Source: Litorivivens lipolytica
Lineage (GTDB): Bacteria > Pseudomonadota > Gammaproteobacteria > Pseudomonadales > Spongiibacteraceae
Reading direction: 5' to 3'
NCBI RefSeq assembly: GCF_014191715.1
Contig: NZ_JACHWY010000001.1
Location: 1,674,001-1,738,000 of the forward strand
Length of the DNA stretch: 64,000 bases
Shown: piece by piece, positions 1,684 through 17,895 of the stretch
Position numbering within the stretch: position 1 is the first letter of the stretch
Layout: every line of letters starts with the position of its first letter
The notes under the pieces: generated by a model
The model's database searches: none
Seen by the model: the letters and a program-made list of their open reading frames with translations, nothing else
Told to the model about the DNA's origin: nothing
Program-made: the position numbers and the translations under genes

Positions 1684-2986
1684 GATCGATGACCTTCCAG
1701 TAAAAGTCCGTCATTTCCAGCGCAGCCTTGCGCCAGCAGAATATGTTTTCCATGCGTTCTCGTCCTTCGCGAGCTAGGCGCTGGCGTAGTTCGGGGTCAT
1801 CAAACAGCTTGATCACCGCATTGCTTATCGCGTCGCTATCACGCACAGGCACCTGAATACAGGCGTCGCCCACCACCTCAGGCAGGGCCCCACCATTGCT
1901 CGAGACTACCGCCGTGCCGCAAGCCATTGCTTCACCGGCCGGCAGCCCGAAACCTTCATACACCGAGGGCACAACAACAATTTCCGCCTCGTTGTAGTAA
2001 CGAACCAACTCTTCGGTACTTATTCCAGTCACGCAGCGAATGCGCTCAGCAAGACCAAGCCGTTCGATCAGGCGCTCCGTTGAACCACCCGGCTTAGGCT
2101 TACCGACTAGCAGCAGTTCAAGCTCAGGATACCGCTCAATCAGAGCGGGCAAGGCATTAATCAGGTAATGAGCACCTTTCAAGGGCGCATCTGCAGATAC
2201 AGTCGCCATCAAGCGAAAAGGCTTCTTCTCCACTTCTGGCATGGGATGAAATACATCGGTATCAATGCCGCAATGCACCAGATCAATGCTTTCGGGCGCC
2301 ATCCCGAAAGCCTCGGCAATATCATGCCGCGAACACTCAGACACCGTGACGACATTGCGCAGCTTTGGCGCCACCTTGCGCTGCATGGTGATAAACGAAT
2401 GCCAGCGGCGGATCAGCACGCGCTGCCAAGCGCTGCGCGCAGCTTTGAGAGCAATGTCCAAATCACTGGTGATCGGGTGATGAATAGTCGTTACCAGCGG
2501 AAAGCCCTCTTTCTGGAGCTGCAGCATGCCCCAGCTAAGACTTTGATTGTCATGGATAATATCGTAATGACGACCGTGCTCGCGAAGATACTTCACCACC
2601 CGTCGGCCAAAGCAATAGGGCTCGGCAAAGCCGCCCGTCAGCTTGCTTGTCCACTCGATAATATTAGTCGCCGACCGCAGATGGTGCGGCCGCAAGGAAC
2701 CGAGTCCATTTTCGAACAGGTTGAGGCCCGGCATCTTGATAAGACGAATGCCGTCGTCCAGATGAGGGTATGGCTCACCCGAAATCACATCCACTTCATG
2801 CCCGGCTTCACGCAGGGCCTTGCTGAGATAGCGAATATAGATACCCTGACCGCCACCATAGGGGTGACTGCGGTATCCCAGGATGCAGATTTTCAGGGAG
2901 TGCTGGTGCAAGCCCTCGGCGATGGGTACGACGTCGGCAATCTGGGGCCGCGCCTGCTGTGATTTGGCTAGCTGCTCTGAACGCAT
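1670..2986 (-). CDS. GT4-family glycosyltransferase
   Basis: A 438-residue GT-B enzyme. About 30 residues of leader precede the first strand (LKICILGYRSHPYGGGQG, residues 31-48), whose glycine-rich loop binds the sugar nucleotide. The C-terminal half carries the retaining GT4 signature SVYEGFGLPAGEAMACG with the paired glutamates spaced E-x7-E. The ATG at 2986 has no strong Shine-Dalgarno, and a start nearer the first strand is possible. It is the first gene of a three-gene overlapping unit with a methyltransferase and a cyclase-fold protein. The rest of the region makes LPS or surface glycan, so a role in a glycolipid is likely, but donor and acceptor cannot be read from the sequence. Confidence 0.88.
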   Translation of the reverse strand: MRSEQLAKSQQARPQIADVVPIAEGLHQHSLKICILGYRSHPYGGGQGIYIRYLSKALREAGHEVDVISGEPYPHLDDGIRLIKMPGLNLFENGLGSLRPHHLRSATNIIEWTSKLTGGFAEPYCFGRRVVKYLREHGRHYDIIHDNQSLSWGMLQLQKEGFPLVTTIHHPITSDLDIALKAARSAWQRVLIRRWHSFITMQRKVAPKLRNVVTVSECSRHDIAEAFGMAPESIDLVHCGIDTDVFHPMPEVEKKPFRLMATVSADAPLKGAHYLINALPALIERYPELELLLVGKPKPGGSTERLIERLGLAERIRCVTGISTEELVRYYNEAEIVVVPSVYEGFGLPAGEAMACGTAVVSSNGGALPEVVGDACIQVPVRDSDAISNAVIKLFDDPELRQRLAREGRERMENIFCWRKAALEMTDFYWKVIDRANR

Positions 2987-3119
2987 ATCCGATACTGGCG
3001 TGAGTTGTTATCCCCTGCATAGCCAGTAGCGGCTTTTCGGCTGCGATGCCGAGGGGTCATGAACCTATAGAGGCTGTTATATTACTGAAAACGAGGACGG
3101 AGTGTAGCGACAAAAACGG

Positions 3120-5186
3120 TCAAAATCTAGTCACTATACGACTGGATAGCGGAGCGATACCCAACTCTGAAGCAACCCGACCAACCACCTGGTCAGCCCC
3201 AAAGCGCGTTAAATGATCATCATCTTGGTATAGCAAGTAACCATTCTTGTATGCCTTGCACCGCTCTTCATCACAAAAAACAGGCTTAGGATCAACTACC
3301 ACCAAATTTGACTCTAACCCTGCTACTTGATCCACCGCCCTCCGAAACGGAGCAGTTCGCTCATCATAGACCGCACTTTTTATTGATATATCAATCTCTT
3401 GCTGGCCTCTCATAACCTGTCGATAAAAATACCTAGGCACGTCCCAGCCAAACTCGGGTATAGGCTGTATAATCACGACCCTTTTTCCCGCCTCAAGCAG
3501 AGTCCGGAGAGGCTGCATCATTGAACTAAGAACAGCCGTTTCGTAGGCCATATCTCGCAACTTTTGTTTCGGCTCAAACCAGTATTTCTGCCCGCTTTCT
3601 CTTGCGCCGGACCCGTTATCATACCGTTGCTTGCTGTAATAATATGGCCCCCTCTCGGCCACAATTACTGTCTCTATATCAGCGTTATCGAGCAGCCACT
3701 TTTGCACACTCTCGTTGTGCTCCTCACACAGACCTTCATGATCTCCTACCAAGCGTACCCCGATAGCATAGCCACAGGTGTATCGAGCTAGAAGATAGCC
3801 GGATTCATTAGCCTCGCGAAATAAAGCATCTATGGAGGCCGTATATTGGGAGGCATGACTGTCACCAATCAAAGCCCATGTACGCATCGCTTCTGGATCA
3901 CCAATTTCGCAGATCTCTCCGGCCTCGATCTTGGAGCGACAATCTCTACCATCGGCAGTCATTGACACACTAGAAGAGCCACTGCGCTGCAGCGTTTCTT
4001 CCACAAAAGCTATCGGCAATCGGTGACGAAAACCATGCTTGTTATCTACATAATTAGCGACTGAGAAAACCACTAATGTTGAGCAAGCGACCCCCCACCA
4101 GAACTTCGGCTTAGATACTCGAGTTGCGCTTCGAAAAGGCTCTTCTACATATTTTCGGGTAACTGCAGATAACGCGACTGATACAGCCAACAAAGACGTA
4201 GCGATCAATAGGTCGAAATTATCAATAAAAACCCAACGCCCAAATGCAAGAAAAACCTGGTGCCAAAGATAAAGCGAGTAGGATAGACCGCCCAACCAAA
4301 CCAGTGGTGACCAACTTAGGAAGCGCACCGCCAGACTGCCCTCGCTGGCGAATAGCAGCAACAGCAACACACCGGACACCGGCACCAACGTAATACCACC
4401 AGGGTGAAGCGAGTGCTCACTGGCTAAAAAACATACGCCCAAAAGCATCGCAAAACCAAGATCAGCCAACCAACGGTGAGCAACAAGCGGAACTCGCTTG
4501 CGTATTCGACATTGGTAGATTGCCGCTAGGCCGCCCACAAGAAACTCCCACACCCGAGCCGAGAAAATATAATAGGCTCGTGCACTGTTCTCGTTGGTTG
4601 CCATGGAAAAAGCAAAAGACAAAGACAAGAGCATCAACCCAAACAGCGCAAAAGTTAGCCAGCCTCGACCAATTCGGGTAAAAAACAAAAACACCAAGGG
4701 AATTAGGAGATAATACTGCTGCTCAAGTCCCAACGACCAAAGGTGCATGAACGGCTGTAAACTGATGCTAGAACTAAAATATCCCGGCCCCGCATCAGCA
4801 AAAAACACGTTGCCAGCCATGGCAAGCGCCCAAATGCCGCTTTCCGCCAAGGTCTCATAATCCACTGGCGGCAGAACAAAGTAAGCGAATACGACACCAG
4901 TGAACACGACCAGATAAAGCGCAGGCAGAAGGCGGCGAGCGCGCCGCTCGTAGAAATCAACTAGACTGAAGCGGCCAAGCTCCATATCTTTGATGATGAT
5001 TGCGGCCATTAGATAACCGCTGACGACGAAGAAAGCATCAACAGAAAAAAAGCTGCTGCCAAAAAGCTGCGCGCCAGCGTGATAAAAGGCAATTATGAGC
5101 ATTAGGAGTCCTCGCAGACCCTCTAGCTCAACCCGAAATGCCAGCGGCGATACCACGCTCACTCCTCCGTTTCCAGCCATGCACAT
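3120..5186 (-). CDS. acyltransferase-3 / SGNH two-domain O-acyltransferase
   Basis: A 688-residue inner-membrane protein from the ATG at 5186. An upstream in-frame TTG at 5249 exists, but the added residues look non-family. The first ~380 residues are an acyltransferase-3 (OafA/YrhL) domain with about ten membrane segments, the histidine of AFYHAG near the start, and SVDAFFVVSGY. The C-terminal periplasmic part is an SGNH hydrolase-like domain: the nucleophile serine is in GDSH (about residue 443) and the Asp/His pair is in DDDHLTRFG (His about 658). Such fusions move acetyl or similar groups onto surface polysaccharides or peptidoglycan. It stands alone at the left edge of an A+T-richer block of surface-glycan genes, which suggests O-acylation of the local glycan. 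Confidence 0.9.
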   Translation of the reverse strand: MCMAGNGGVSVVSPLAFRVELEGLRGLLMLIIAFYHAGAQLFGSSFFSVDAFFVVSGYLMAAIIIKDMELGRFSLVDFYERRARRLLPALYLVVFTGVVFAYFVLPPVDYETLAESGIWALAMAGNVFFADAGPGYFSSSISLQPFMHLWSLGLEQQYYLLIPLVFLFFTRIGRGWLTFALFGLMLLSLSFAFSMATNENSARAYYIFSARVWEFLVGGLAAIYQCRIRKRVPLVAHRWLADLGFAMLLGVCFLASEHSLHPGGITLVPVSGVLLLLLFASEGSLAVRFLSWSPLVWLGGLSYSLYLWHQVFLAFGRWVFIDNFDLLIATSLLAVSVALSAVTRKYVEEPFRSATRVSKPKFWWGVACSTLVVFSVANYVDNKHGFRHRLPIAFVEETLQRSGSSSVSMTADGRDCRSKIEAGEICEIGDPEAMRTWALIGDSHASQYTASIDALFREANESGYLLARYTCGYAIGVRLVGDHEGLCEEHNESVQKWLLDNADIETVIVAERGPYYYSKQRYDNGSGARESGQKYWFEPKQKLRDMAYETAVLSSMMQPLRTLLEAGKRVVIIQPIPEFGWDVPRYFYRQVMRGQQEIDISIKSAVYDERTAPFRRAVDQVAGLESNLVVVDPKPVFCDEERCKAYKNGYLLYQDDDHLTRFGADQVVGRVASELGIAPLSSRIVTRF

Positions 5187-5289
5187 TGCTTCGCTGCACG
5201 ATACCGCAATCACACTTTTAATCGACGCACGGCAATCAGATGGGAACAAAGGCCTTCAATGCCCCCCAAAAAGGAAGTGCAATGATAAA

Positions 5290-5303
5290 CGGTAAAATTA
5301 CCG
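5290..5303. repeat. short inverted repeat in gap before acyltransferase gene
   Basis: CGGTAA and TTACCG, separated by two bases, form a perfect 6-bp inverted repeat about 100 bases upstream of the O-acyltransferase start. It could be an operator or a chance palindrome. The rest of the 283-base gap (5187-5469) shows no other gene, RNA or clear terminator. Confidence 0.25.
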
Positions 5304-5469
5304 ATTTAGTTGATTTCAGTCACAAATTCATGAGGCAAAAAATCGGCTGGTCCTCGCCACAACCACAAACCTGCCCGATACCGGCTAGCCAGTTAGGCGA
5401 AGAGAATCATTCCAGAGCGTAAACAATGCCAGCAATCACGCGAGATAAGTGGAGTACGAGCACCCTGCT

Positions 5470-6024
5470 CTACTGGATCGGGAGGCTCTTATAGGATCGC
5501 AGACGCTTCGCGTGCACGCGCAAAACGCGCTTTATCATACTCTTTTCAACAATGTAAAATCTATCTCGCTCCGATTCATCTACCAACCGCGCTCCAAAAA
5601 CGTTCTCGTGGAATTTCCAAACACTAACATTGTCTTGGCGAACCTCAAGCCGAGCCTCCTCAAAGCCCAGATCTACCGCATATCGATAAATCAGAAGTGC
5701 TGACTCAAGAGCCGCAAAAGGAGGAGCTCCACTAATCATTAGCCATGATCCCCACTCAAAGCTTTTCCCGCTGGGGTTATACATCCGAACACAACCCAAT
5801 CTGCGCCCGTCTTTAGACTGAATGATGAAATAGGCCTGATCGCAACTTTTCTCGTATTTTTGCATCCAGGCCTCCTGCTCAACTAAAGAGGGCACCGTAG
5901 CGCTCAGATATCGCCCCTTGTCTGGATCTAGCCTCAAAGAAAGGATAAATTCCGAATCACTAATCACGGCATTCCGCAACGAAACATTCACCCCTTCCAC
6001 GAGACTCGCCTTACGCAATCTCAC
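5470..6024 (-). CDS. GNAT-family acyltransferase, candidate sugar N-acyltransferase
   Basis: A 184-residue single-domain GNAT protein. The fold is recognisable from the N-terminal strand VSLRNAVISDSEFILSLRLD, the central FIIQSKDGRRLGCVRMYN and the C-terminal VRQDNVSVWKFHENVFGARLV. Pieces of this kind are typical of RimJ/PseH-like acyltransferases in polysaccharide clusters. The start is a GTG at 6024 with GAGGG about eight bases upstream. It lies six bases after the ANL ligase and ends a four-gene operon (acyl carrier protein, SDR, ligase, GNAT). From that context its donor may be an acyl-carrier-bound acyl group rather than acetyl-CoA. The acceptor could be the 3-amino sugar made by the nearby FdtA/FdtB pair. 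Fold assignment is firm; substrates are inference. Confidence 0.75.
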   Translation of the reverse strand: MRLRKASLVEGVNVSLRNAVISDSEFILSLRLDPDKGRYLSATVPSLVEQEAWMQKYEKSCDQAYFIIQSKDGRRLGCVRMYNPSGKSFEWGSWLMISGAPPFAALESALLIYRYAVDLGFEEARLEVRQDNVSVWKFHENVFGARLVDESERDRFYIVEKSMIKRVLRVHAKRLRSYKSLPIQ

Positions 6025-6030
6025 TTTGCG

Positions 6031-7326
6031 CTACCCTCTCTTAAACCTGTGCCCAACTTCCACTTTCTTTATTTTGATTCTTTTGGGCACCATATGGGAA
6101 GGCAATGTGTCTTTCAGCAAGCGTTTCAGCTCACTCGGGTCAACGCTTTCTCCACTGCGAGGCTGCACACTGAGCTCAACATGTTGTCCAGTTATGGGGT
6201 TTGACTTACCCTCAGCTTTAACAAGCTCAACCGTATCAAGCTCTAGCACCACTCGCTCAACTTCTGACGCCATAAATTTGAGGCCACCCACATTTATCAT
6301 CTCAGAAGTGCGACCAACCACTTTGTAGTATTCACCACTAACCTCAACGAGATCTTTGGTGTTGTACCAGCCTTCTTCATCAAATGGACACTCTGCATTG
6401 AGATAACCCAACATCCTATTTTCGGACTTTATCTCCAGCACACCGTCGACAACCCTAGTCTCTACCCCTTCACCTCCAACCTTCATGAAAAGGCTATCCC
6501 GTGATTTGCTCTTCACCCTCAGAATACCCAGCTCAGACATGCCAAATGTCTGCCTAAAATCAACCCTTGGCAATAACTCGCACAACGCATTCAAGGTGGA
6601 CTGATCCATACGCTCAGTTCCGTACGTGATAACCTTGAGTGAAGGAGGAACGCGCTCTGGTATCATCCCACTCATCAGCATCATCCGCAGAAACGTTGGC
6701 GTTGCCGGAAGCACTTCAACATCAAATTCTTCACAAGAACGCAATATATCCTCAACCTGCCTCGACCTCGGCGCTATCACGGTACCTGTATTAAACAAGG
6801 TATGCAGCAGCGTATTCAGACCACCGATGTGATCAAACAAGAGGAAATTCAATGTCCGAAAAGTTGGCCGAGGCGTCGAAAAACGCTTTAAAAATACAGT
6901 CAAATCATGCAATATTGCTTTAGGACGCCCTGTTGTACCTGTCGAAAACAGCACCAGCCCGGCATGCTTTTTGGCTCGCAAACAATCTAGGAGCTGGTGT
7001 GATCCTCCATGCCCCACCCTCTCGACGTGAGAGCCTTCTATGACAAAATCCACAAGGGCCGATTCAAAAAAATACTCATGCTGACTGCGGGTGTCACTGG
7101 TCAACGGCACAAGGATTACGTTCTTATCAATAAGCCTTAAAAGCGTTGAAATGGAACGCGGATCGAAATCCCCAATTAACGCGACCACATCTCCATCACC
7201 TATTTCAGTCAAATCTACATCGCCTTGCGTAGCAATTTGACTAAACCTCAATTCACCATCCGCGTGTATTAGAAAAGGCCTTTCCAGCCCAGCCCACTTT
7301 TGGGTCAAACTCTCAACAATTTTCAT
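6031..7326 (-). CDS. short ANL-superfamily acyl-activating ligase
   Basis: A 431-residue adenylate-forming enzyme. The P-loop-like A3 motif STGTTGRPK is at residues 128-136, QTFGMSELG (A5) is in the middle, and YNTKDLVE (A7) and VVGRTSEMINVGG (A8 hinge) follow. The C-terminus reads GHRFKRG, where Lys429 is in the position of the A10 catalytic lysine. Family members are usually 500-550 residues, and here the N-terminal subdomain ahead of A3 is clearly shortened. It begins on the last base of the upstream SDR stop (TAATG) and lies in one operon with an acyl carrier protein. The probable job is therefore to adenylate a carboxylic acid and load it on that carrier. The acid is unknown. Confidence 0.85.
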   Translation of the reverse strand: MKIVESLTQKWAGLERPFLIHADGELRFSQIATQGDVDLTEIGDGDVVALIGDFDPRSISTLLRLIDKNVILVPLTSDTRSQHEYFFESALVDFVIEGSHVERVGHGGSHQLLDCLRAKKHAGLVLFSTGTTGRPKAILHDLTVFLKRFSTPRPTFRTLNFLLFDHIGGLNTLLHTLFNTGTVIAPRSRQVEDILRSCEEFDVEVLPATPTFLRMMLMSGMIPERVPPSLKVITYGTERMDQSTLNALCELLPRVDFRQTFGMSELGILRVKSKSRDSLFMKVGGEGVETRVVDGVLEIKSENRMLGYLNAECPFDEEGWYNTKDLVEVSGEYYKVVGRTSEMINVGGLKFMASEVERVVLELDTVELVKAEGKSNPITGQHVELSVQPRSGESVDPSELKRLLKDTLPSHMVPKRIKIKKVEVGHRFKRG

Positions 7327-8003
7327 TAGACCCCTCCGATGTTCAACGTCTGCCCGCTTAGCGACAATGCGCGCGGATCAATCAGAAGTTCAACGAGGTC
7401 ACAAACGTCAGACTTTTCAAACTGCCGGGTTATTACTTGCTGAGACGTGATATTTTCGATTTGCGAATCTGTAATCCCTCGCAACAAATCAGTTTTTATC
7501 GGCCCTGGTGCGATACAGTTCACACGAACCCCAAAATCAGAAACTTCGCGAGCAAATGAGCGAGAAAATGCCTCCACACCCGCCTTAGACGCGGAGTAAA
7601 CTGATTCACCCTTTAACGCCAAAGCAACTGCAATAGTCGAGAAGTTAACTATCACCCCTGCGCGCTGCCTCATCAAAATCGGCGCAAACAACTGACAACT
7701 ATAAATAGTCCCCATGAGGTTGGTTTGGATCAGCCTCTGAACGGTCATGGCATCTGTTGTGACAGCCATATTCATTGACGCGATACCCGCAGCATTAATC
7801 ACCGCATCGACAGGCTCTCCTAGCCTCTTGACTGTTCGCGCCGCTTTTTTTACGGTGTCATAATCTGCTACATCACACTTGATAGCCTCGAAAGGCAATC
7901 CTTCCGTAGACCGAACCAAACCCACTACGTTGTGTCCTCGCTCTATCAAGCGATCAGCAACTGCCCTGCCCAGCCCCCGGCTTGCTCCCGTTACAACAAT
8001 CAA
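7326..8003 (-). CDS. FabG-like SDR oxidoreductase (candidate 3-oxoacyl-ACP reductase)
   Basis: A classical short-chain dehydrogenase/reductase with a TGASRGLG cofactor loop (residues 5-12), NAAG, catalytic Ser122 and the YSASK motif (Tyr136, Lys140). The best start is a TTG at 8003, one base after the acyl carrier protein stop, with GGAG about eight bases upstream. This gives 225 residues starting IVVTGASRG, the normal FabG layout; longer in-frame extensions overlap the carrier gene and look non-coding. The order carrier-reductase-ligase suggests reduction of a 3-oxoacyl group on the carrier to a 3-hydroxyacyl group. A sugar-nucleotide or other ketone substrate cannot be excluded. Confidence 0.85.
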   Translation of the reverse strand: MIVVTGASRGLGRAVADRLIERGHNVVGLVRSTEGLPFEAIKCDVADYDTVKKAARTVKRLGEPVDAVINAAGIASMNMAVTTDAMTVQRLIQTNLMGTIYSCQLFAPILMRQRAGVIVNFSTIAVALALKGESVYSASKAGVEAFSRSFAREVSDFGVRVNCIAPGPIKTDLLRGITDSQIENITSQQVITRQFEKSDVCDLVELLIDPRALSLSGQTLNIGGV

Positions 8004-8004
8004 A

Positions 8005-8280
8005 TCAATTCTCCGACTGAGCAGAAAACTCAGCTGAAAGACTCGAGATAGATCTAAACATACTCCGCGATTTAGACATCGCCGCATCCGAGGTCCAATC
8101 AAACTCAAACCCCAACTCATCGGCGCGATCTTCCAAAGCGAGACACACTTCAACTAGCTTCATCGAGTCGAGCACCGAGCCATCACCAATAAGCTGCATA
8201 TCTTCATCGACTGTTAACTTCCCCTCCAGAACCTGATCAACGACTTCCATAACCAGCTTCTTAGCCTCATCCAACTTCAT
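8005..8280 (-). CDS. dedicated acyl carrier protein
   Basis: A 91-residue acidic helical protein with the phosphopantetheine site GSVLDSMKLVE (Ser39), where Met replaces the Leu usual in AcpP. The stretch LALEDRADELGFEFDW and the C-terminal SKSRSMFRSI are unlike housekeeping AcpP and match the short carriers found in some polysaccharide clusters. It is the first gene of the carrier-SDR-ligase-GNAT operon, and the SDR start follows one base after its stop. It probably holds the acyl group activated by the adjacent ligase. A housekeeping role in fatty-acid synthesis is unlikely because no fab genes are nearby. Confidence 0.85.
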   Translation of the reverse strand: MKLDEAKKLVMEVVDQVLEGKLTVDEDMQLIGDGSVLDSMKLVEVCLALEDRADELGFEFDWTSDAAMSKSRSMFRSISSLSAEFSAQSEN

Positions 8281-8307
8281 CTTCTCTCGTTCCTTAACTC
8301 CACGTAC

Positions 8308-8336
8308 CTAATATCGAACCCAGCTTACACAAGCAA
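8308..8336 (-). promoter_or_regulatory. candidate sigma-70 promoter of acyl-module operon
   Basis: On the minus strand TTGCTT, a 17-base spacer and TATTAG lie about 30 bases upstream of the acyl carrier protein start. The elements match consensus at three and four positions. The gap after waaP (136 bases) allows an independent promoter, but read-through from waaP is equally possible. Confidence 0.3.
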
Positions 8337-8416
8337 ATCTCGCAAGCCACTCCACTCAAACGCATACATTCTCAATCCGGAATTGGCGCATATACTTAAT
8401 ATGTATCAAGCCTGCC

Positions 8417-9199
8417 CTAGCCAGCATACTTTCGCTCAAATTTAACCCTTAACCTATATGATTCTAACTCCAGCCACTGCAGGAGGCGTTTTTCACGCTT
8501 AAAAATCACTTTCAACGGAAGCTCAAAATAACACGAAAGAAACAGTAATCTCTCCCGATCCGTTAGGCCCGCTGCCCACGCAGAAAAATACAAGCTAGCC
8601 AAATCTTTTGCACGCCACCTAGCCGGCACTTGAGAGCGAATCTGAGCGCGATGAAGGTCGATAAGTGATATTTTAATTCCCCCCTTTTCCAAGCATGCAG
8701 TATCAAGCAAAAAATGACATAGATAGAGGTCCCTATGGTTCATTCCAACCGAGTGCATGATTGATGTCATTTTCGCAACCTTCCTAATTATCCCCCGCCT
8801 TAACCTGGTATCTGCGGCCCTATCGCTCCCTATAAAGTCCTCTAGACTCAGTGTGGGTTTTAACTCCTCAGTGATCAGAAAAGACTCAATCGCCGCAGGG
8901 TTCACTCCCCTAACACCGAATGCCGCCAACGTCATAGTATCTACGCCAGCTTGCGATAAAACCTCAATAGCTCGTCTCTCGTCCTGGGCACAGATAACTG
9001 GCCTTTTAAGCAGGCAGATGTTCTTTAGTATCTCCCTCCAACCTACGCCCGAGTGATATTTCAGAAAATAGCTTTTACCACAGTACTCAAACCGCAAGGT
9101 CTTCCGACCAGGCAAGTCTCGAAAAACCCTCCCTTCCCTAGAAGCTGCGAAATTAAAAGCCTCCTCGGGAGCGGAACCCACATTTAGACTTCCAGACAC
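8417..9199 (-). CDS. waaP: WaaP-family LPS heptose kinase
   Basis: Kinase-fold protein that probably phosphorylates heptose I of the LPS inner core on the cytoplasmic face. The catalytic loop MNHRDLYLCHFLL (Asp157) is almost that of enterobacterial WaaP, followed by the metal-binding SLIDLHRAQIR (Asp181) and an N-terminal GRKTLRFEYCGKSYFLKYH strand pair with the ATP lysine. A GTG at 9199 preceded by GAGGGGG gives 260 residues, close to the usual 265. An in-frame TTG at 9310 would add 37 residues lacking family similarity. Unlike in Pseudomonas, the gene is not next to waaG but about 13 kb away, inside an A+T-richer block. It could act on a heptose other than HepI. Confidence 0.88.
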   Translation of the reverse strand: MSGSLNVGSAPEEAFNFAASREGRVFRDLPGRKTLRFEYCGKSYFLKYHSGVGWREILKNICLLKRPVICAQDERRAIEVLSQAGVDTMTLAAFGVRGVNPAAIESFLITEELKPTLSLEDFIGSDRAADTRLRRGIIRKVAKMTSIMHSVGMNHRDLYLCHFLLDTACLEKGGIKISLIDLHRAQIRSQVPARWRAKDLASLYFSAWAAGLTDRERLLFLSCYFELPLKVIFKREKRLLQWLELESYRLRVKFERKYAG

Positions 9200-9427
9200 A
9201 ACCAACGGCACCCCCTCTGGAGGCGTTCCAAAAAGGCATATATTTACTCGATCTAGAAAGTGTAGAAGTGGGTTCAATTCATCCTCACAACACGGCCAAA
9301 AACATCTCAAAACCCAGACTTTGTCAGCAGAGCGAGGCGCAATTCTGCAAGTTTTGTATTAACATACGCCCAACTAAATCCTTGAACCAAATTGCGGAGC
9401 ACCGACTCCAAACCAGAAGGCCCGGAC

Positions 9428-10165: not shown

Positions 10166-10573
10166 ATGAGCCTTAAAAACTGTAGACTTATCGAGCTTCC
10201 CAAAATCCAAGATCACCGAGGAAACCTGACGTTTATCGAAGAAAATCGCCACATCCCTTTCGATATCTCTAGAACCTATTACCTCTACGACGTCCCTGGA
10301 GGAGGAAACCGCGGAGGCCATGCACACAAAGCCCTAGAACAGCTCATTATTGCAGTCGCAGGAAGCTTCGATGTTCAGCTTGATGATGGCTCAAAAAGGC
10401 GCACGATTACGCTGAATAGGCCTTACCAAGGCCTATACATATGTCCTATGATCTGGCGCGAACTCGACAATTTCTCCTCGGGCTCAGTCTGTCTAGTACT
10501 TGCCTCAAACCTGTACGATGAAGACGATTATTATCGAGACTACGATAAATTCTTGACGGACTCCCAAAAGTAA
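10166..10573 (+). CDS. fdtA: dTDP-4-oxo-6-deoxyglucose 3,4-ketoisomerase (FdtA/QdtA type)
   Basis: A 135-residue single cupin of the WxcM-like sugar 3,4-ketoisomerase family. The [14 protein letters not shown] segment carries the His52/His54 pair that forms the active site in FdtA and QdtA. It would convert the RmlB product dTDP-4-keto-6-deoxyglucose to the 3-keto isomer. Its TAA stop shares a base with the ATG of the aminotransferase (TAATG), so the two steps are coupled. Sequence alone does not decide whether the product has the galacto (FdtA) or gluco (QdtA) configuration, so the symbol is given for the family. RmlB is encoded 4 kb away on the other strand. Confidence 0.85.
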
Positions 10574-11673
10574 TGACTAAAGTTCGCTTCTTCGATTTCG
10601 ACGCCTTCCACCAACCAATCCTTCAAGATATAGAAGATGCAGCAATCCAAGTTATCCGTTCGAATCATTATGTCGGAGGAGAAACACTTGATAAATTTGA
10701 GGACGAATTCGCTGAGTACGTCGAGTCCTCATACGCCGTAGGCGTTTCAAGCGGCTTAAGCGCCATTCACCTGGCACTACTTGCTTCGAATATAGGTCCT
10801 GGTGACGAAGTAATCGTACCTTCAAATACGTTTATAGCAACCTGGCTGGCTGTCTCTCACTGTGGCGCGACGCCTGTACCCGTTGAGCCAGACAGTCTCA
10901 ATCACTTAGTAGACCCCGCCCAGATCGCCAACAAACTTACTTCCAACACAAAGGCTATTATCCCTGTACACCTGTACGGACAAACAGCCGATCTGGACCC
11001 GATCATCGAACTCGCCAAAGCTCACAACCTGGTAGTGATAGAAGATGCTGCACAAGCACATGGTGCTTATTACAAAGGGCGAAAGATAGGCGGAATTAGT
11101 CACATGACGGCCTGGAGTTTCTACCCTGGAAAAAACCTTGGAGCTTTAGGCGATGCAGGCGCCGTCACTACTAACTCACTAGAGTTGAGAGATCGCCTAG
11201 TCTCACTGCGGAACTATGGATCCACAAAACGATACGTAAATGACTCCATTGGCTACAACTGCCGCCTAGACCCAATACAAGCGGCCATACTATCAGTCAA
11301 ACTCAAACATTTAGACACATGGAATACCCAGCGCCAGAACAATGCAGACTATTACAGTAGGCATATAACAAACAAAAGCTGCCAACTTCCAACCACTCCA
11401 ATATGGTCAACACCCGTCTGGCATCAGTATGTTATTCGGTGCAATCATCGGAATGAACTGCAATTCTGGCTCGCAAAGCATGAGATCGAAACACTGATTC
11501 ACTACCCTATCCCCCCCCACAAACAGCTAGCTTACCGCCATCAATCCTTTAGCGGGCTTGAGACAGCAGAACAACTGTCAAATCAAGTTCTCAGTCTTCC
11601 GATCTACCCAGGAATGACAACCAAACAACTCGAATCCGTGGTGAATGCCATAAATGCTTTTTCACCTAGTTAG
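10573..11673 (+). CDS. fdtB: dTDP-3-keto-6-deoxyhexose 3-aminotransferase (FdtB/QdtB type)
   Basis: A 366-residue DegT/DnrJ/EryC1 PLP enzyme. GLSAIHLAL binds the phosphate, EDAAQAHGA contributes the ring-stacking aspartate (Asp158), and [16 protein letters not shown] contains the Schiff-base lysine (Lys187). Length equals FdtB. It starts on the last base of the ketoisomerase stop and would aminate the 3-keto sugar to dTDP-3-amino-3,6-dideoxyhexose (Fuc3N or Qui3N). The usual next enzyme, a left-handed beta-helix N-acetyltransferase (FdtC/QdtC), is absent here. The GNAT at 5470-6024 is the only sugar N-acyltransferase candidate nearby. Confidence 0.88.
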
Positions 11674-11690
11674 CCCATAGGTTATACCGT

Positions 11691-12614
11691 ATGAAGCCTA
11701 GAAATATCCCCGCCAGCTTAATTCTCTTTGCATACAACCAAGAAGACTACATCGAAAGTGCTGTACATTCAGCACTATCTCAAAACTATGAACCACTCGA
11801 AATCCTCATAAGCGACGACTGCTCTTCCGACAAGACTTTTTCTCTGATCGAGAAAATTACAAAAGACTATTCGGGCAGACACTCCGTAAAAATAAATCGA
11901 AATGAACAAAACCTCGGACTGATCGAGCACATAAATAAAGCCTTCAGCATGGTCACTGGTGAAATCATTGCAGTTGCAGCCGGCGATGACATTAGCCTAC
12001 CAGACCGAGTTAATCAGATTGTCGAGGCGTACCTACAAAACAATGAAAGACCGACCTTGGTACATAGCAGCGCAATCCAGATAGACCACCAAGACATTGA
12101 AGCCGGCGAAATAAAACCAGAATGGGGAATCAGTGAGCCTCAAATAGCACATTCAGCCCTTTCCCCTGCACTTTACATAGGTGCTACCGCAGCGTACTCG
12201 AGATCACTACTTGCCTTATTCCCCCCCATACAGAACAAAAGGACCTACGAAGACTTGGTATGGGGATTCCGCTCAGCTCTAGTCAAGGCAGTGGTTTACA
12301 TCGACAAACCACTAGTAAAATACAGAACAAACGTAGGTATCTCATGGAAACTACATGAAGGTAAGAGCCCACAAGAAAAAAAGGCGTCCAGATTAAATAA
12401 ACTAAGGCTTTATAGAGAGGTCTTGAAACAGAGAGTTTGCGACTCTCAAAGTATTGATTACCCGAATAAGGCAACAATTGAAAAGAAACTCCACCGGGAA
12501 ATGCTAAAGACAAGCATCCAGATCAGCTTATTAGAGACCCCTCTAAAGTCTCTAATCTATTTGGCGATACATCCAAGAATCTACCTACGCCAAAGGAAAA
12601 AGCTGACTTCATAG
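11691..12614 (+). CDS. GT2-family glycosyltransferase
   Basis: A 307-residue GT-A transferase. The N-terminal strand is ASLILFAYNQEDYIESAVHSAL, then LISDDCSSDKT and the metal-binding region AVAAGDDISLPDR. The last 80 residues are basic and could hold it at the membrane surface. It follows fdtB by 17 bases in the same direction, so transfer of the 3-amino sugar is a reasonable guess. The gene is markedly A+T-rich compared with the LPS-core genes. It converges on the RgpF gene with no recognisable terminator in the 27-base gap. Confidence 0.85.
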   Translation: MKPRNIPASLILFAYNQEDYIESAVHSALSQNYEPLEILISDDCSSDKTFSLIEKITKDYSGRHSVKINRNEQNLGLIEHINKAFSMVTGEIIAVAAGDDISLPDRVNQIVEAYLQNNERPTLVHSSAIQIDHQDIEAGEIKPEWGISEPQIAHSALSPALYIGATAAYSRSLLALFPPIQNKRTYEDLVWGFRSALVKAVVYIDKPLVKYRTNVGISWKLHEGKSPQEKKASRLNKLRLYREVLKQRVCDSQSIDYPNKATIEKKLHREMLKTSIQISLLETPLKSLIYLAIHPRIYLRQRKKLTS

Positions 12615-14516: not shown

Positions 14517-15578
14517 CTACGCTACAAGTTTAATCCACCATCTCTCATTCTCAAGATACCAATTGATCGTAGCCTGTATACCCTCTTCGAACTGAAATGC
14601 CGGCACATAGCCCAATTCACTGGTAGTTTTTCCACAGTCGATCGCATAACGTCGATCATGCCCTGCCCGGTCTGCCACGAAGGCAATGCTGTCGACGCTC
14701 TTCTTGCCCTTCGATGCTGGAGCGTCCGGATAGCGCGCTTGTAGACTCGGATCCTGCTCAAATGCCGCATCCAGTTTTTCACAAAGCACCCGAATCAGCT
14801 CAAGATTATCCCACTCGTTATTCCCACCGATATTGTAAACCTCACCAGGAACACCTTTCTCAAGTACGGCTTCAATACCTCGAGCATGATCTTCAACATA
14901 GAGCCAATCACGAATGTTTTTACCGTCGCCGTAAATTGGAATCTGCTTGCCACGTAGAAGATTGGTAATCGCCAGCGGGATCAGCTTTTCGGGAAAATGA
15001 TAGGGGCCGTAATTGTTGGAGCAATTACTGGTTGTCACGTCCAAACCATAGGTATGGTGATACGCACGAACCAAATGGTCTGAGGCAGCCTTGCTAGCCG
15101 AATACGGTGAGTTTGGCTGGTATTGGTTTTCTTCAGTAAACGCCGGATCATCGGGCAGCAGCGAACCATATACCTCATCTGTACTCACATGATGAAATCG
15201 ATGGGGCATGCCATCACCGGCCAACCAGACACTGCGCGCGGCTTTCAACAGGGAATGCGTCCCCAACACGTTCGTCTCGATAAAGGCATCTGGCCCTGTG
15301 ATCGAGCGATCAACATGACTCTCAGCAGCAAAATGAACAATCGTATCGAGTTGTCTATCACGCAACAGGCTTTCCACTAACGCCGTGTCGTTGATATCGC
15401 CATGTACAAAAGTAAAGCGTGGATTATCTTCCACAGACGCCAGACTGGCGCGATTACCGGCGTAAGTCAGCGCATCCAGCACGACTACTTCGTCGCCGGG
15501 GTGCTGCTTCAACCAGTAGTGAACGAAGTTGCAGCCAATAAAACCGGCACCACCGGTTACCAATAATTTTCGTAACAT
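14517..15578 (-). CDS. rmlB: dTDP-glucose 4,6-dehydratase
   Basis: A 353-residue extended SDR that oxidises and dehydrates dTDP-glucose to dTDP-4-keto-6-deoxyglucose. The NAD loop TGGAGFIG, the THE-motif equivalent HVSTDEVYG and the catalytic YSASK are all intact, and the length matches the family. It is the fourth gene of rmlACDB, 33 bases after rmlD. Its product feeds both L-rhamnose synthesis and the FdtA/FdtB branch encoded 3-5 kb to the left, so this is the branch-point enzyme of the region. Confidence 0.97.
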   Translation of the reverse strand: MLRKLLVTGGAGFIGCNFVHYWLKQHPGDEVVVLDALTYAGNRASLASVEDNPRFTFVHGDINDTALVESLLRDRQLDTIVHFAAESHVDRSITGPDAFIETNVLGTHSLLKAARSVWLAGDGMPHRFHHVSTDEVYGSLLPDDPAFTEENQYQPNSPYSASKAASDHLVRAYHHTYGLDVTTSNCSNNYGPYHFPEKLIPLAITNLLRGKQIPIYGDGKNIRDWLYVEDHARGIEAVLEKGVPGEVYNIGGNNEWDNLELIRVLCEKLDAAFEQDPSLQARYPDAPASKGKKSVDSIAFVADRAGHDRRYAIDCGKTTSELGYVPAFQFEEGIQATINWYLENERWWIKLVA

Positions 15579-16469: not shown

Positions 16470-17017
16470 CAGTCAAAGGCCTCTGCGTCCACGAACGGCA
16501 CGCCTTGAGCATCCTTGGCTGATAGCTCAGGTTCCCCCGTATCCACCAGAGGCCACTCAATACCCACCTGCTTGTCGCTCCATAACAGACTGCGCTCGTG
16601 TTCAGGTGCATAATAGTCCGTGCATTTGTAGTGAAAATCTGCCGATTCAGACATCACATAAAATCCGTGGGCAAAGCCCGGTGGCACCCAAAACTGACGA
16701 TGATTCTGGCCACTCAGCACTACACCGTACCACTGACCAAAAGTCGGGGATGAACGACGCATATCAACGGCCACATCAAACACTTCACCATGCGTCACCC
16801 GCACCAACTTCCCTTGCGGTTGTTTAATTTGGTAGTGCAGGCCGCGCAACACGCCCTGACGTGATCGGCTGTGGTTATCCTGCACAAACTCGCCTTCTAC
16901 GCCCGCCTCGCGGTAGCGCTCCGCCTGCCAGGTTTCACAGAAAAAGCCGCGCTCGTCGCCAAAGACTTTCGGCTCGATGACAAGGAGGCCTTCAATTTGC
17001 GTCGTCTGTACCTTCAT
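16469..17017 (-). CDS. rmlC: dTDP-4-dehydrorhamnose 3,5-epimerase
   Basis: A 182-residue cupin epimerase. The catalytic His lies in [18 protein letters not shown], followed by [26 protein letters not shown] and the Tyr-containing [14 protein letters not shown]. All are standard for RmlC. It overlaps rmlA by four bases (ATGA) upstream and rmlD by one base downstream. It acts in the cytoplasm between RmlB and RmlD. Confidence 0.96.
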
Positions 17018-17895
17018 TGGGGCGTTCCCGGCTGTACGATTTTCTTGAGATAAGCGCCGTAACCGCTTTTCTCGGTTTCTCGGGCAATTTCAAGCAAGTT
17101 TTCAGTTGTTATATAGCCTTTGCGCCAGGCAATTTCTTCTGGGCAGCAGACTTTCAAACCCTGCCGGGCTTCGACCACACGTACAAAGTTGGCCGCATCC
17201 AGCAGGGACTCATGGGTCCCTGTATCCAGCCAAGCCGTTCCGCGGGGCATAAAATTCACCCGGAGGCTGCCTTGACTGAGGTAGACATTGTTAACGTCGG
17301 TGATTTCCAGCTCGCCACGAGACGAAGGCTTGATATTTCGCGCAATATCCACCACCTGATTGTCGTAAAAATAGAGTCCAGTGACGGCGTAGTTTGATTT
17401 AGGGCTTTTCGGCTTTTCTTCAATGCTGGTGACATTGCCCTGCTCATCGCAGGCGACCACGCCGTAGCGCTCAGGATCATCCACATAATAACCAAAGACT
17501 TCAGCGCCCTGCTCCAGCTTGCTGGCGGCCTCCAGCTGGGTGCCAAAACCACTGCCATAGAAGATATTATCGCCAAGCACCAGCGATACGCTGTCGCTAC
17601 CGATAAATTCTTCACCAATGATGAAGGCCTGAGCCAGCCCGTCCGGACTGGGCTGAACGGCATACTGCAGACTGATACCCCACTGACTACCATCTCCCAA
17701 CAAATGCTGAAAGTGGGGCGCATCCTGAGGTGTGGTGATAATCAGAATATCGCGGATTCCCGCCAACATCAGTGTCGACAGGGGGTAGAAAATCATCGGC
17801 TTGTCGTAAACCGGCATCAGCTGCTTGCTGACGGCCTTGGTCAGAGGGTAGAGGCGGGTACCGCTGCCGCCTGCTAGGATAATACCTTTTCTCAT
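17014..17895 (-). CDS. rmlA: glucose-1-phosphate thymidylyltransferase
   Basis: A 293-residue nucleotidyltransferase making dTDP-glucose. The signature [19 protein letters not shown] is at the N-terminus, [18 protein letters not shown] follows, and [10 protein letters not shown] holds the metal-binding aspartate. It is the first gene of the leftward rmlACDB-GT2-RgpF operon. The 119-base gap to the divergent GT2 gene at 18015 must carry its promoter; a GATAAT box about 45 bases upstream is the best -10 candidate, without a good -35. Confidence 0.97.

Follow-up and report, generated by a model that had tools for sequence, protein, structure and literature searches.

A predicted acyl supply cassette with an FdhC-type GNAT beside 3-amino sugar genes in Litorivivens lipolytica

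Introduction

N-acyl groups on rare amino sugars contribute to the antigenic character of bacterial surfaces. This article concerns a cassette of four coupled genes, encoding a dedicated acyl carrier protein (ACP), a FabG-like short-chain reductase (SDR), an ANL adenylate-forming ligase and a GNAT-family acyltransferase, in a 64,000-nucleotide stretch of Litorivivens lipolytica DNA (contig NZ_JACHWY010000001.1, positions 1,674,001 to 1,738,000), termed the window hereafter. It is probable that this cassette loads a short acid on its own ACP and reduces it to a hydroxyacyl group, with which the GNAT would acylate the 3-amino sugar made by the neighbouring FdtA/FdtB for lipopolysaccharide (LPS).

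Several described systems resemble the cassette. In Escherichia coli O103, fdhC is described as coding for the enzyme that makes Fuc3N(R3Hb), a 3-hydroxybutanoyltransferase (PMC4869667), and the gene set for this sugar is mentioned elsewhere (PMC3726653). FdhC (PDB 5kta, 5ktc and 5ktd) shares with the window GNAT the fold, a homologous sequence and the partnership with FdtA/FdtB. The window protein differs in having only about 31% identity to the O103 enzyme (E 2e-24) and in belonging to a subclade linked to the ACP-SDR-ANL trio, whereas in the E. coli stretches the fdhC gene lies between fdtA and fdtB without an adjoining ACP, reductase or ligase. The viosamine island of Pseudomonas syringae (acp, vioS, vioR and vioB) uses an ACP and a 3-oxoacyl-ACP reductase to furnish a dTDP-amino sugar with its N-(3-hydroxy-1-oxobutyl) group (PMC3927599). 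A dedicated ACP and a FabG-like reductase are likewise found in the window cassette, but the island has a KASIII enzyme (VioS) and its VioB, annotated as a dTDP-viosamine acetyltransferase, acts at N-4, in place of the ANL ligase and the FdhC-type GNAT predicted to act at N-3 in the window. The wfpC-wfpD-wfpG genes of Flavobacterium psychrophilum resemble the cassette in the same way, supplying an ACP and a ketoacyl-ACP reductase for a predicted 3,5-dihydroxyhexanoyl group on Qui2NAc4N; they differ in a route like type II fatty acid synthesis and in a PglD-type transferase (PMC6519341).

The group II flagellar glycosylation islands of Aeromonas carry orf1-orf3, encoding an ACP, a 3-oxoacyl-ACP reductase and an AMP-dependent synthetase, for which a liposugar is suggested by the authors (PMC7874193). 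Gene composition and order are those of the trio, beside amino-sugar (pse) genes, and LuxE/LuxC-type genes follow. Membership of one family is nevertheless ruled out: in three LuxC islands (L195-L197; our own L and G numbers denote loci and genomes) out of 14 LuxC-positive genomes, the SDRs have 25-27% identity to that of the window, and neither the ligase (at 1e-3) nor the ACP matches the window proteins. The window ANL family was found, at 1e-60, in one of 31 Aeromonas genomes. On one contig of A. enteropelogenes the flagellar-island set (L195) and the trio (L198) stand about 18 kb apart, as two unrelated reductase-ligase sets.

FdhC, 3-amino sugars bearing a hydroxybutyryl group and dedicated ACP/reductase modules have all been described before. 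The original prediction for this locus, which held the enzyme set to be not well described, was therefore half right, since the transferase and the hydroxyacyl 3-amino sugars are on record, as are ACP/reductase modules for hydroxyacyl amino sugars (PMC3927599, PMC6519341). Among the open-access titles listed no such set was met beyond the Aeromonas, Pseudomonas and Flavobacterium papers, most subscription papers lying outside that scope. To the extent of the open-access literature searched, three things are new: that the trio forms a family, that it is linked to FdhC-type GNATs, and that it is exchanged between acyltransferases.

The four-gene cassette and its proposed route

The open reading frame (ORF) list places the four genes on the minus strand at 5470-8280, in the arrangement originally predicted, with a one-base overlap or one to six bases between neighbours. 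The ACP (8005..8280, 91 aa) carries its phosphopantetheine serine, Ser39, within GSVLDSM, and all 63 aligned ACPs share this serine; the protein is too divergent for a domain to be found by Pfam, and its NCBIfam match is weak (DltC, 5e-4). The SDR (7326..8003; Pfam adh_short) has 225 aa from a TTG start, or 275 aa from an alternative upstream in-frame start. Its Asn95, Tyr136 and Lys140 are conserved throughout the 78 aligned SDRs. The ANL ligase (6031..7326; Pfam AMP-binding, and the C-terminal domain below threshold) contains the P-loop STGTTG and an FDHIGG motif. Originally described as "shortened", it has 431 aa and its C-terminal lysine is present as Lys429; this residue is kept in nine of nine aligned ligases, as is the FDHIGG motif apart from a single conservative substitution (the motif and its flank read LYDHIGG or MFDHIGG). 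The GNAT (5470..6024, 184 aa, GTG start; Pfam Acetyltransf_3) is the predicted N-hydroxyacyltransferase for a dTDP-3-amino-3,6-dideoxyhexose.

The acceptor would be supplied by a FdtA/QdtA dTDP-sugar 3,4-ketoisomerase (10166..10573, plus strand) and a FdtB-type pyridoxal phosphate (PLP)-dependent 3-aminotransferase (10573..11673, plus strand), whose proximity had been correctly noted. The FdtA start is 1.9 kb from the ACP start and, as the strands are opposite, the two gene sets are neighbours and not one operon.

In the proposed route, RmlA and RmlB would provide dTDP-4-keto-6-deoxyglucose, and FdtA and FdtB would convert it into dTDP-3-amino-3,6-dideoxyhexose. The ANL ligase would turn a short acid into acyl-AMP and charge the phosphopantetheine of the cassette's own ACP with the acyl group, the FabG-like SDR would reduce a 3-oxo group of the ACP-bound acyl chain to a hydroxyl, the GNAT would transfer the hydroxyacyl group to the 3-amino group of the sugar, and the N-acylated sugar would enter the LPS core or O-chain. 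Judging from the sequences, the most likely product is a dTDP-3-amino sugar whose amino group carries (R)-3-hydroxybutyryl or something near to it; the resemblance of the GNAT to FdhC makes (R)-3-hydroxybutyryl the simplest guess. The observed basis of this route is homology, the order of the genes, the conservation of active-site residues and the link of the GNAT family to Fdt genes; from these we infer which acid is used, that it is loaded on the ACP, in what order reduction and transfer occur, that the GNAT takes an ACP thioester rather than coenzyme A (CoA), and what the final glycan is.

The GNAT belongs with FdhC

When the window GNAT alone was compared with the PDB (phmmer), its sole match at E<=0.01 was FdhC (5kta, 2.2e-22), and the profile of its family gave FdhC 207.7 bits against 36.2 bits for PseH. 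An AlphaFold model built from five sequences (predicted local distance difference test, pLDDT, 85.9) aligned with FdhC 5ktc over 177 residues (Z 24.7, root mean square deviation 2.8) and with apo FdhC 5kta at Z 22.3, the next entry in the ranking having Z 20.2. The ligands of 5ktc are CoA and 3-[(R)-3-hydroxybutanoylamino]-3,6-dideoxy-D-galactose, that is, (R)-3-hydroxybutanoyl-Fuc3N. A tree of 25 GNAT sequences puts the window protein in one clade with the O103, O91 and Fdt-adjacent GNATs (95/93), with the PseH-like and type C trio-linked GNATs outside it. Within this clade the window protein forms a subclade with those of L025, L027 and L058 (97/92); a fifth trio-linked GNAT of the type, in L012, takes another position in the clade, next to the long-branched L092. 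Judged from sequence and modelled fold, the window GNAT belongs with FdhC. A generic or PseH-type acetyltransferase identity is ruled out by the tree, the fold and the PDB and profile scores. It is likewise very improbable that the GNAT performs plain N-acetylation with acetyl-CoA like PseH while the trio makes something else: the weak PseH match and the occurrence of PseH with acetyl-CoA among the structural neighbours (Z 19.6) would agree with it, but FdhC is clearly nearer by both measures.

The loop before the donor-binding helix reads NEHKTK in FdhC, NEDK in L152 and L169, NDDK in O103 and NERK in O91. It reads ISGAPP in the window, VNGQGP in L025, IKGLGP in L027 and INGLPP in L058. The lysine missing from these last four is also missing in L012 and in L151, whose GNAT stands beside an ACP and a ligase, and its absence from trio-linked GNATs may be a weak clue to ACP use. 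Two proteins speak against the clue: L158 has no such lysine and no trio, and the L152 GNAT keeps the lysine though its genome has a trio elsewhere.

Relatives of the GNAT at Fdt loci

In the class sample, FdtA occurs at 28 places, spread over 27 of the 369 genomes. Against this background, FdtA is present in all six genomes to which a trio or GNAT sequence led and in which the GNAT was shown (G324, G376, G378, G408, G798 and G525), a count that leaves out the GNATs of L151, L152, L158, L169 and L092, found near FdtA or inside those loci, the other trio genomes being covered for this GNAT only in part. A point against the association is that FdtA and GNAT lie on different contigs in G324, G378, G408 and G525. 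The order FdtA-GNAT-FdtB is seen in L152 (A. enteropelogenes), L202 and E. coli O103, O91 and O184; G798, a genome that shows it, was reached through the GNAT sequence alone; in L158, L169 and L151 the GNAT adjoins FdtA or FdtB. Among 23 FdtA loci outside trio genomes (L158-L180), the two with this type of GNAT beside FdtA have no hexapeptide match, and some hexapeptide match occurs in 13 of the 23, strong in seven. The FdhC homology and the place of relatives in the acyltransferase slot of Fdt operons thus favour the original prediction that the GNAT acylates the 3-amino sugar; the frequent absence of FdtA from trio genomes (see below) does not.

In L151 of Duganella flavida (1882-8688) an ACP, a more distant ANL ligase, an FdhC-type GNAT, FdtB and FdtA share one region. 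A protein that we take to be FkbH-like stands first, Pfam giving only a sub-threshold HAD match, and a KASIII-like fragment lies upstream. From its sequence, this region appears to couple a further acyl supply to the same type of transferase and sugar pathway.

The hexapeptide N-acetyltransferase usual for such pathways had been reported as missing. A genome-wide search with one FdtC-like protein as query gave six weak matches, none of them in the window. By ORF reading, five of them are two CysE-like proteins, a gamma-carbonic-anhydrase-like protein, GlmU and an orphan WbbJ-like protein, and no sugar genes lie beside these five. The claim therefore stands for the window; for the genome, no match is convincing, but the WbbJ-like orphan is the best of them (2e-12, 34% over about 106 residues).

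ACP-SDR-ANL as a travelling trio

The ANL alignment was run against a collection of 84,980 genomes. Of a larger number of loci the best 80 were kept (41-75% identity); they lie in Proteobacteria, Verrucomicrobia, Prochlorococcus, Desulfovibrio, Chloroflexota, Clostridia and others. The SDR gene directly precedes ANL in 76 of the 80 loci and an ACP lies upstream of ANL in 74, three of the other six ending at a contig edge. Since the order recurs across many phyla and the key residues are kept, the cassette is not a product of chance.

What follows the trio varies. The gene after ANL encodes an acyltransferase in 32 of the 73 loci with room for one (type A GNAT in three, PseH-like type B in nine, types C and D in six each, PglD-like in six, other hexapeptide in two), a KASIII in four and none of these types in 37; for the 36 closest loci the fraction with an acyltransferase is 22/33. 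The classes are hidden Markov models built from the downstream genes themselves, for which Pfam indicated GNAT in two type B and one type C representatives and hexapeptide in one PglD-like representative, and the two "other hexapeptide" matches are weak (32 and 47 bits). A single supply trio is thus combined with several kinds of acyltransferase, representing two folds; with its order kept and its partners varied, it looks like a portable acyl supply.

FdtA and NeuB were searched for in 49 genomes, from 50 of the 80 loci. The co-occurrence of the trio with amino-sugar genes, proposed as a check in the original prediction, failed for FdtA, which is present in only 9 of the 49, because the trio also stands beside other acyltransferases. 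Type A GNAT goes with FdtA (3/3, against 6/46 for the remaining trio genomes, p 0.005). Of these six, G380 and G381 have an FdhC-type GNAT at their Fdt locus. Type B goes with the sialic-acid-type synthase NeuB (8/9 against 16/40, p 0.01; both p-values ignore relatedness and genome size). The transferase type after the trio follows the sugar pathway of the genome.

ACP-SDR-ANL is also found near FdtA/FdtB in L011 and L092. In the class sample, FdtA occurs in five of eight ANL genomes compared with the 27/369 overall (p 7e-5), or in four of seven when the window's own genome is set aside (p 6e-4). ANL and FdtA are neighbours only in G000 and G176; they lie on different contigs in G167, G174 and G324, and the ANL of G167 and G174 is a more distant ligase. 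A search at 1e-60 found ANL in the genome of the window but not in any of 37 other relatives, so the trio is accessory in the window's own group. In the 1.19 Mb single-contig genome G176, L011 (10578-16722) unites the trio, a KASIII-like protein, a second ACP, a GNAT, an FdtC-like hexapeptide protein, FdtA and FdtB, which from sequence looks like provision for a chain-extended acyl group on an Fdt sugar. In Yersinia rohdei (L070, 9034-11300) the trio lies directly behind a large polyketide-synthase-like gene and its ligase frame appears broken. E. coli genomes, where a match could have linked the trio to a solved O-antigen, gave none to this trio at DNA level.

It is possible, though we would not yet call it likely, that ACP-SDR-ANL is a portable acyl-ACP cassette that has crossed phyla and been plugged into FdhC-, PseH-, other GNAT- and PglD-type transferases, that it turns a free acid into one undescribed hydroxyacyl group with no condensation of the fatty-acid type, and that its GNATs have shifted from CoA to a dedicated ACP.

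Nature and source of the acyl group

No KASIII is found within the four-gene set, unlike in the viosamine island, and an ANL ligase is in its place, with a profile not near any single solved specificity (4-chlorobenzoate, MenE, FadD13, malonyl). The same architecture might hence serve another chemistry, in which a ready hydroxy or other acid (glycerate, dihydroxybutyrate, lactate and so on) is loaded, the SDR works on a different carbonyl or at a stage prior to loading, and the product is not 3-hydroxybutyryl. FkbH proteins load glyceryl units, and the Duganella region joins the same GNAT type to the presumed FkbH-like protein, an ACP and a more distant ANL. An Aeromonas flagellin glycan has an unexplained 102 Da moiety, and its island has the analogous ACP/reductase/ligase set. 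We nevertheless regard this other chemistry as unlikely, since the GNAT resembles FdhC and the best curated match of the SDR, with a score under the cut-off, is the 3-oxoacyl-ACP reductase TIGR01830. The solved proteins nearest to the SDR are also 3-oxoacyl-ACP reductases, save one cumate-diol dehydrogenase.

Several findings weigh against loading, reduction and transfer to the Fdt sugar as proposed. The cassette and FdtA/FdtB lie on opposite strands, and FdtA is missing from 40 of the 49 trio genomes. The SDR has Thr123 where typical FabG has its catalytic serine (Thr in 68/78 aligned SDRs). Of the two positions that we take to be the ACP-docking arginines of FabG, it has Arg at one and Phe at the other. 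No free acetoacetate source turned up, none having been searched for. The orphan hexapeptide acyltransferase of the own genome could conceivably serve the pathway, and in two genomes with trio and GNAT, G376 and G378, Pfam finds a hexapeptide domain fused to FdtA (L147, 7316-8239; L148, 7103-8101), so the GNAT there may have another acceptor or role. Finally, the FdhC crystal 5ktc contains CoA, the GNAT genomes G525, G798, G136 and G066 have no trio ligase at 1e-40, and the E. coli O103, O91 and O184 O-antigen stretches shown contain no ACP or ligase. The GNAT family therefore does not need the trio, and these last three facts would agree with a GNAT to which primary metabolism supplies hydroxyacyl-CoA or -ACP, presumably the case for FdhC in E. 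coli, the trio serving some other acceptor. Such a division is improbable for the window, as the GNAT gene directly follows ANL here and in L025, L027, L058 and L012, and other acyltransferase types occupy the same slot in other trio loci. Supply of the GNAT by its own trio is the reading that we prefer.

Surroundings of the cassette

The cluster is placed in an LPS core locus by the heptose kinase RfaP/WaaP (8417..9310, minus strand; NF011703, 315 bits, cut-off 170). RmlB (14517..15578, minus strand) and RmlA (17014..17895, minus strand), both named by inspection, would provide the dTDP-4-keto-6-deoxyglucose common to the rhamnose and 3-amino sugar pathways and the dTDP-glucose, respectively. 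A GT2 glycosyltransferase directly after FdtB (11691..12614, plus strand; Pfam Glycos_transf_2) is a candidate user of the cassette product. Directly 3' of the GNAT, on the same strand, a large AT3-SGNH acyltransferase (3120-5249; Pfam) may O-acylate the same glycan.

The ketoisomerase motif is Trp-Arg-Glu in the window and in E. coli O91, and Trp-His-Glu in 2pa7 and E. coli O103. The Arg/His position is, we assume, a discriminator between FdtA and QdtA, and O91 presumably contains Qui3N (3-amino-3,6-dideoxyglucose); because the window shares the O91 motif, Qui3N is slightly favoured over Fuc3N as its sugar. About 29 kb upstream of the window, two phasin-like proteins named by inspection (L135, 10149-11085) hint at polyhydroxyalkanoate metabolism and thus at a source of 3-hydroxybutyrate.

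Conclusions

The interpretation first given to this locus is partly supported. If the route proposed here is true, ACP-SDR-ANL would be a recognisable donor cassette, predicting unusual N-acyl groups in many genomes, marine single-cell genomes included. It would also bring together different acyltransferases, occurring in nature, that may all work with one carrier.

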